Origin: an uncultured Pseudomonadota bacterium
Lineage (GTDB): Bacteria > Pseudomonadota > Gammaproteobacteria > Methylococcales > Methylomonadaceae
Reading direction: 5' to 3'
DNA: 64,000 bases
Assembly (NCBI GenBank): GCA_903848935.1
Contig: CAINHO010000030.1
Coordinates: 62,001 to 126,000 of the forward strand
This document shows positions 60,280 through 63,593 of the stretch, in pieces (positions within the stretch are counted from its first letter, which is position 1; every line of letters starts with the position of its first letter). The notes under the pieces are model-generated. The model searched no databases. It was not told where the DNA came from and worked only from the letters and a program-made list of their open reading frames with translations. The position numbers and the translations under genes are program-made.

Positions 60280-61590
60280 ATGAGCGATTACAACGAAACC
60301 AACAACAAAGAAACTATTTTGAATGTGCGTAGCGTGTTAGCGCGGCATCGTTTAGTAGAAGAATTAGTACGGAAACAAAATTTAGTGGAACTGCAACGCT
60401 TACTCGAACAACTTGATGCCACCTCGATGGCGCAAATGTTGGAGATTTTTTCGCCGGAAGATCGCCAAATCATCTGGGATTTAATTGCTGAAGTGCGAAA
60501 AGAAGAGATTTTACTCGTGATGCCTTATGACACGCGGATTGAATTGGCGGCAGATTTTCGGTCGCGGAATCGTAATATGGTCATTCGGATTTTCGATTTG
60601 CACGACGGTTTGTTGCGGCAGATTCCTATCGAAACCAAAGCCGATTTAACGCACGCCAAACCGATTTGGATTGATTTGGTTATGCCCGAAGATGAGCATT
60701 TAAATTGGGCACAAGACATATTTGGCGTGGATTTACCGAATCCCAAAGAGCTGACGGATTTAGAAACCAGTGCGCGTTTTTATGTGGAAGATAATGGCGA
60801 AGTACATTTGCATTCGGACTTTTTGCTAGATAGAAAAGATGCGTCTCGCAACGTTGCCGTCGCATTTGTATTGAAAAAAGACACCTTGTTTTCGGTACGC
60901 AGCGAGGAATTACCCGCCTTTCGCTTGCAACGTTTACGCGCTCGCGCCGAATCGGATTACATTTCAAATGCTAAAGATTTGCTGCTGGATTTATATGCAG
61001 CAGATGTGGAGTATTCGGCGAACGCACTGGAAGATATTTACACAGAACTCGAAGCTGTTGGGCGACAGGTTTTCAAATCGTACATGACCGATGAAGAAGC
61101 GGCGAAAATTCTGGCAGCGATTGCTGAAGAGGAAGATTTAAACGGGCGCATTCGGCGCAATGTTTTGGATACACGGCGGGCGTTATCGTTTTTGATGCGC
61201 GGTAAATTTTTATCTGAAACGCAACATGAAGATGTGCGCGAAATTTTGCGAGACATTGAATCGCTCGATGGTCACACGTCGTTTTTAGTAAATAAAATCA
61301 ACTTCCAAATGGACGCAACGGTCGGTTTTATTAACGTGAATCAAAATAAAGATTTGAAACGTTTAACGGTAATTAGTTTGGTTTTTATGCCGCTGAATGT
61401 GATTGCTGGAATTGGCGGAATGTCGGAATTTTCGATGATGACCACGGGCATTCCTTGGCAATGGGCGTATAGCGGTTTGTTGGGCGGATTGGCGTTTGTG
61501 TCGTGGCTGACGTTTATGGGTGTGCAGTTTTTTGAGCGGCGCAAAATTCGACGTTTATCAATGGAAAATCGGAAAATCCAAGTCCGATGA
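60280..61590 (+). CDS. MgtE N-terminal domain fused to CorA-like divalent-cation transporter
   Basis: MgtE_N-like [35 protein letters not shown]; CorA C-term [17 protein letters not shown]..two TM..FFERRKI. Confidence 0.85.
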
Positions 61591-63593
61591 GCTATTGGTT
61601 AATTGTCGCTACGTCGGGACGAATGCTCGCACAAGCCTCGTGGTGTGAAGGTTTTGACGTGTTGGTGATTGATTGTTTTGCTGATATTGATACGTTGCGT
61701 TATGCGAAAAAAGTGGTTCGGGTGGATTCGCTTGCGATTGAAAATTTAACCGTCGCACTGACTAAATTAGCCACTTATGAAATCACAGGTGTGGTGTATG
61801 GCAGTGGATTTGAAACCTGCGTTGAAAGCCTTTATTTTTTAGAAAGTCGTTTTGAAATGGCTGGCAATTCCCCCGCTATTTTTGAACGGGTGCAGAATAA
61901 ACATGAATTTTTTGCTGCGTTGAATGTGTTGAAAATTCCGTATCCTGAAACGTGTTTTGAATTTCCAATTAACCAGAAGAATTGGTTATCGAAACCATTA
62001 AACGGTCAAGGCGGCGTGGGTATCAATTCACAAAAAACAGATATTTATTGGCAACGTTTTTGTGATGGACACGCGGGTTCTGTTTTATTTTTGGCGGACG
62101 GTGAAAGCGCGACGGTTATTGGTTTTAATTCCCAATGGACTCACCGAGATTTTCTTTTTGCAGGCATTTCAAATCACAATGACTTAACGGATTGCCAAAA
62201 ATCACGACTTCAATCGTGGTTACAAAAATTGGTTCAGTATTTCGATTTGCGCGGTTTGAATTCATTGGATTTTATGCAAACTGAAAACGAGATTTTCGTT
62301 TTAGAAATCAATCCGCGTCCGTCAGCGAGTATGCAGCTTTATGATTTAGCATTATTTGAAGCACATTTAACTCTAAATTTAGAATTGAATTGCACAACAA
62401 GTTTTTCAGTTTACGAAATCATTTACGCACCGCAAAACCTCATCATTCCAAAAAATTTCAACTGGTCAAAAAACTGCCAAGACTTGCCGCATGGGGGCGT
62501 GATAATTCGCAAAAATCAGCCTATTTGCAGTATGATTGCACGCGGCTTACAGCCTGATATGGTATTAAAAAAACTAAAAATTAACGCTCAACAATTAGAG
62601 GAAGATTTAACTATGAAACAAGCCAGTGTGAACAAACTCACCCAGCCATTAGTTCAAGAACTTATCGATAACGCGGCGAAGTTGCGAGTCGGAATCGAGA
62701 TTTTAGAAAACGGTTGCACCGTAATTGATGCGGGAATTAACCATTTGGGCGGATTGGAAGCGGGACGGATTATTGCTGAAATTTGTTTAGGTGGCATGGG
62801 AACGGTATCGATTTCGCACAGTCAATACACCACGAATTGGCCTTTATCGGTAAATGTTCACACGGGCAACCCTGTTTTAGGTTGTTTGGGTAGTCAATAT
62901 GCGGGTTGGAGTTTGTCGCACGAAAAATACTACGCTCTCGGTTCTGGCCCTGCGCGAGCCATGGCGACCAAACAAAAAGACGGTCAAACTGTACCGGTCG
63001 AAGAGTTATATCAAGAATTGGCATATCACGACGAAGCTGATGCGGCGACATTGGTCATCGAAAACGACGCGATTCCACCGTTGGCGATTATTGAAAAAGT
63101 GGCGGCAGCGTGTGGCATTTCACCTGCAAAATTAACCATTATCGTCACGCCCACCAGCAGTTTAGCGGGTGGTGTTCAAGTGGTGGCGCGAGTTTTAGAA
63201 GTCGCCATGCACAAAGCACACGCGCTACATTTTCCATTGGAAAATATCATCGATGGCAGCGGTTCTGCGCCAATTTGTCCGCCACATCCGAATTTTGTCA
63301 AAGCAATGGGACGCACGAATGACGCGATTTTGTTTGCCGGACAAGTGCATTTATTTGTGAAAGGTAGCGACGAAGCCGCCGAAAAATTAGCGAAAGAATT
63401 ACCAAGTTCAACGTCGAAAGATTATGGCAAACCGTTTGCTGAAATTTTCAAAGCCTGCGAATACGATTTCTTCAAAATCGACGCGATGTTGTTCAGTCCA
63501 GCAAGTGTGATTGTAACGGCGGTTGAATCGGGTAAAAGTTTCCGTGCCGGTCAATTGGATAATACGTTGTTAGATTTATCATTTGGTGCATGA
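61587..63593 (+). CDS. mch: ATP-grasp (COG2232-like) fused to methenyltetrahydromethanopterin cyclohydrolase (Mch)
   Basis: Residues 1-342: ATP-grasp ([43 protein letters not shown]). Residues 343-668: Mch ([67 protein letters not shown]). ATG start overlaps previous stop. Confidence 0.9.
62597..62615 (+). promoter_or_regulatory. Internal Shine-Dalgarno-like AGAGGAAG and in-frame ATG at the Mch domain start
   Basis: AGAGGAAG 62597-62604, 8-nt spacer, ATG 62613 = codon 343. Confidence 0.6.

Follow-up and report, generated by a model that had tools for sequence, protein, structure and literature searches.

Genus-wide in-frame fusion of a probable MyfA/OrfY-type ligase to Mch in Methylomonadaceae, with a retained internal Mch start that looks used

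The window, a stretch of 64,000 nucleotides from a Methylomonadaceae contig, carries near its end a stop-free ORF of 668 codons (61587-63593, + strand, as are all features of the window described here) in which an ATP-grasp ligase is joined in frame to methenyl-H4MPT cyclohydrolase (Mch). The ligase half comprises residues 1–342 (61587-62612) and is followed by a complete Mch, residues 343–668 (62613-63593). The Pfam ATP-grasp_3 profile matches residues 103–248 (8e-17) and the Pfam MCH profile is matched in its entirety by residues 347–666 (4e-127). The NCBIfam profile TIGR03120 is likewise covered from end to end (1–313 of 313), with 431.8 bits compared with a curated equivalog cutoff of 228.8. 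The Mch half begins with its own ATG (62613-62615), which lies 8 nt downstream of a Shine–Dalgarno (SD)-like AGAGGAAG (62597-62604, SD energy −6.0), and a TAA in another frame is located at 62608-62610. An earlier note, made from the letters of the sequence, had described the uninterrupted frame, the full ATP-grasp protein preceding a full-length Mch in that same frame, and the positions of the SD-like motif and of the out-of-frame TAA, and all of these descriptions proved correct on reading of the ORF and on comparison with the domain profiles. Within the genus, dN/dS is 0.17–0.23 for the ligase, 0.03–0.05 for Mch and ∼0.5 (0.49) for the linker between them, which is the least constrained part of the ORF and in which N333, L337 and L341 are conserved. 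Purifying selection therefore acts on the ligase half and on the Mch half, and since it acts on both, the fused ORF is more than a product of chance.

AlphaFold2 was run on 56 sequences. The prediction has a confident ligase fold that ends in a terminal helix (residues 323–341, 62553-62609), a stretch of about six residues, and the first Mch helix at residue 348, with the Mch part modelled with less confidence than the ligase. The terminal helix is the effective linker to Mch and its coding sequence contains the internal SD-like motif. A Foldseek search with the model ranked Mch structures first, followed by PurT, PylC and biotin carboxylase as matches to the ligase. The Mch half is homologous to the solved structures 1qlm, 4gvq and 4fio, and its RVLE segment, in which R and E are conserved, corresponds in the alignment to RIVE of 4gvq, the Glu of which is replaced by Gln in the variant 4gvr. 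We take this Arg and Glu to be active-site residues, as in A. fulgidus Mch. Hence the Mch half resembles the characterized enzymes in its full length, its score above the curated cutoff and its RVLE segment, and differs from them in the 342-residue in-frame extension that precedes it. The genome from which the window comes (∼91% complete) yielded neither a second Mch nor a second copy of the fused ligase.

The role of the ATP-grasp protein, considered not well defined in the earlier note, appears to be less obscure than that. Based on gene context and partial sequence similarity, the ligase half is probably MyfA (OrfY) of methylofuran synthesis. MyfA is an ATP-grasp protein of which part of the sequence is MfnD-like; in M. 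flagellatus it is needed for methylofuran, where it is implicated in the addition of the second glutamate, and in many strains it occurs beside a more MfnD-like paralogue (PMC8141765). The same pattern is seen here, as the fused ligase matches the MfnD profile NF040722 partially and weakly (25 bits, similarity at residues 130–249) whereas a paralogue encoded in the same genome reaches 110 bits. In Azospirillum the order of genes is mptG-mtdB-ligase-mch-RimK(MyfB-like)-orf7-fae, Azoarcus has a closely similar cluster, and further along in each there is another ligase that is more MfnD-like. In the genome of the window the H4MPT and methylofuran set is divided among contigs, with the more MfnD-like ligase on contig C9 and MyfB-, Orf7-, Fae- and Orf17-like genes on contig C10, away from the contig of the fused ORF. 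The ligase thus shares with MyfA/OrfY (PMC8141765) its ATP-grasp type, its partial similarity to MfnD, the presence of a more MfnD-like paralogue in the genome, and homologues that lie directly upstream of mch in H4MPT gene clusters. It differs in lacking its own stop codon and in running on into Mch. Orf17 was considered as an identity for the ligase and was rejected, Orf17 being HisA-like. Between its Orf7-like and MyfB-like genes the methylofuran cluster contains two further ORFs (L200:8214-9920), one of which, judged by eye, resembles an Rpn/PD-(D/E)XK-type protein related to transposases.

The first start of the fused ORF overlaps the stop codon of an upstream CorA-like transporter gene (60280-61590; PF01544, 137 bits) in the four nucleotides ATGA (61587-61590). 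Such an overlap was present at 7 of 12 loci checked, among them locus L008, where the same 4-nt overlap at the ligase start is found with a different upstream gene encoding uracil-DNA glycosylase (L008:5270-6004). Overlaps of 4 nt are characteristic of coupled reinitiation (PMC10666635, PMC12548453). The fused ORF resembles overlapping, translationally coupled neighbours (PMC10666635, PMC12548453) in this classic overlap at its first start, and most members of the family resemble them in the short gaps or overlaps between ligase and mch. In the fused ORF, by contrast, the overlap of ligase and mch is total and in frame 0, so that ribosomes do not terminate in the vicinity of the mch start.

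The alternative raised in the earlier note was that one message might yield both a fusion and free Mch, and this is consistent with several indirect lines of evidence for the internal Mch start. The internal ATG is kept in all 25 fused genes examined and the SD-like motif in 24 of them, although the linker residues encoded there vary; L021 has a weak motif and L039 has none. The latter gene (genome G141) is a fused relative with no recognisable SD upstream of its internal ATG. In the window gene, the internal SD is the strongest that precedes any in-frame ATG, and the SD of the first start was weaker than the internal one in six of seven genomes compared. The mean SD strength exceeds that of synonymous shuffles (p 0.002 for all fused genes and 0.012 for those of the genus, with related genes counted as independent), while in the shuffle test carried out gene by gene no single fused gene was significant. 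The last ten linker codons show the least synonymous divergence (dS of 0.50, compared with ∼1.1 in the enzyme parts), and within the genus the internal start ranks on average in the top 4% of the gene's 60-nt windows by openness. Taken together, these features of sequence suggest that the internal start is probably used, giving free Mch. Bacterial genes such as cheA and infB have in-frame internal starts and give long and short products. The fused genes are similar in that two starts share one frame, one message would be expected to give two nested products, and the in-frame start codon and its ribosome-binding site are conserved. They differ in that the short product predicted here is the whole enzyme of a formerly separate gene.

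The fusion is general in the genus of the window (termed g1) and not peculiar to a single genome. When 301 Methylococcales genomes were searched, in the way proposed in the earlier note, the junction was open in the same frame in 17 of 17 sampled g1 genomes, so that the circumstance named there as damaging, two separate ORFs in all close relatives, does not apply. The g1 fused genes form a single clade in a tree of ligase plus Mch (SH-aLRT 98). Elsewhere in the order the fusion is sporadic. The ligase is directly upstream of mch in nearly all other Methylococcales examined, adjacent or overlapping in most relatives, in agreement with the prior view that the two are normally separate neighbouring genes. 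In the family outside g1, the matches listed include 7 fused, 29 overlapping out of frame and 32 non-overlapping pairs, and since these loci came from the top of the match list, the fused share is probably overstated. In the sister family (f4), the matches listed comprise 2 fused and 28 non-overlapping pairs, and none of 28 loci extracted from other orders was fused. Long open frames from the class-wide and f4 searches were considered as additional fusions and were rejected, as most of the loci extracted had an interdomain stop.

The end of the ligase gene is variable. In the family its stop codon may precede the mch ATG by up to 27 nt or fall as far as 43 nt into mch, and in f4 it lies 2–192 nt upstream of that ATG. 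At many split Methylomonadaceae loci, such as L069-L074 and L085-L096, the ligase reads 11–43 nt into mch in another frame, and its C-terminus is therefore encoded by the conserved 5′ end of mch. Nine changes between the fused and split states are required by the tree. G100, which is fused, and its close relative G180, in which the genes overlap by 17 nt, differ by a single A in the run just before the SD, so one base switches the frame between fused and split. Because changes of stop and frame recur among the relatives, in this case one base apart, the fused state is one outcome of a drifting ligase 3′ end. In the family outside g1, 36 of the ligase ORFs extracted extend beyond the mch ATG, and 7 of them are in frame with it, no more than the third that chance would give. 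Within g1 no junction change occurred over 4.1 branch units where ∼2.8 would be expected from the parsimony rate elsewhere (P∼0.06), a weak hint that the fusion is retained.

We therefore consider it probable that a drifting stop codon gave rise to a fusion now fixed in one genus, in which the internal start provides most of the Mch and some full-length fusion is made as well. The ancestral state would have been a neighbouring pair of genes, the ATP-grasp ligase (probably MyfA/OrfY) and mch. In the g1 ancestor, the drifting 3′ end of the ligase gene would have lost its stop, leaving a single frame that persisted. Initiation at the start of the long ORF, coupled to the upstream gene by the 4-nt overlap, would give a modest amount of ligase–Mch fusion that supplies the ligase activity. 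Ribosomes would initiate separately at the retained internal SD and ATG, giving free Mch, which would account for most of the Mch and is presumably required in larger amounts than the ligase. Such an unequal need fits the situation in M. trichosporium, since transcripts of H4MPT-pathway enzymes are there 5–10 fold above those of cofactor-synthesis genes (PMC3615186). According to this proposal, the fusion would be tolerated rather than beneficial.

The possibility that the fusion is instead a selected bifunctional protein, in which one polypeptide couples cofactor synthesis to a C1-transfer enzyme or fixes their stoichiometry and the internal start is a relic or of minor use, we regard as unlikely. 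The uniformity of g1, with no reversion while the state often changes elsewhere, would be expected of a protein maintained by selection, as would a linker that is open and somewhat constrained at its three conserved positions and a predicted connection of only some six residues joining the ligase fold to that of Mch. However, the internal ribosome-binding site is retained, and the two enzymes would be expected to be needed in unequal amounts. They also probably act on different cofactors, the ligase on methylofuran and Mch on H4MPT, and there is therefore no obvious intermediate to be channeled. Together with the sporadic occurrence of in-frame run-on outside g1, no more often than by chance, the one-base toggle and the loose linker, this leaves physical coupling as the purpose of the fusion, one of the ideas of the earlier note, unsupported. 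A combination of the two readings, which we think distinctly unlikely, is that the genus has a working bifunctional methylofuran glutamate ligase–Mch in addition to free Mch from the internal start of the same message. Mixed Mch oligomers would then bear a small number of ligase arms, and cofactor synthesis would be linked to how much of the C1 enzyme is present.

It is rather improbable that only the fusion is translated in quantity, with an obligatory 1:1 ratio of Mch to ligase and an SD-like motif that is a by-product of purine-rich linker codons. Synonymous shuffles of individual genes do often reach a similar SD strength, because the codons for E-G and E-R are purine-rich. However, the motif and the ATG stay while the encoded residues change, the minimum of dS falls exactly at the motif region, and the openness of the internal start is extreme, all of which speaks against a by-product. 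The least credible explanation is an error of sequencing or assembly by which a stop codon or a difference in frame was lost. It draws on the TAA at 62608-62610 that a +1 shift exposes and on the single base that can split relatives outside g1, but is refuted for the genus by the 17 separately assembled genomes that share the open frame with clearly diverged junctions. Returning to stop-codon drift with a retained internal start, both of its elements have precedents, in known in-frame internal starts and in known pairs of overlapping genes. No description of an ATP-grasp/Mch fusion, which is genus-wide and recurrent here, was found in the literature searched. The natural series of separate, overlapping and fused pairs, sometimes one base apart, shows neighbouring genes turning into a fusion and how the downstream gene retains its own start. 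It also bears on annotation, since automatic procedures will predict a 73-kDa fusion at loci whose working enzyme may for the most part be Mch of 35 kDa, a point relevant to marker, proteomic and metabolic-model work on methanotrophs that is based on Mch.

Two other genes are of note on the same contig. Just downstream of the window, a 3033-residue ORF (L114:6040-15141) contains Ig-like domains and RTX calcium-binding repeats and probably encodes a large secreted adhesin. At L114:15232-17823 there is an AdhE-like fusion of an aldehyde dehydrogenase and an Fe-alcohol dehydrogenase (863 residues), which in a methanotroph suggests a fermentative ability.
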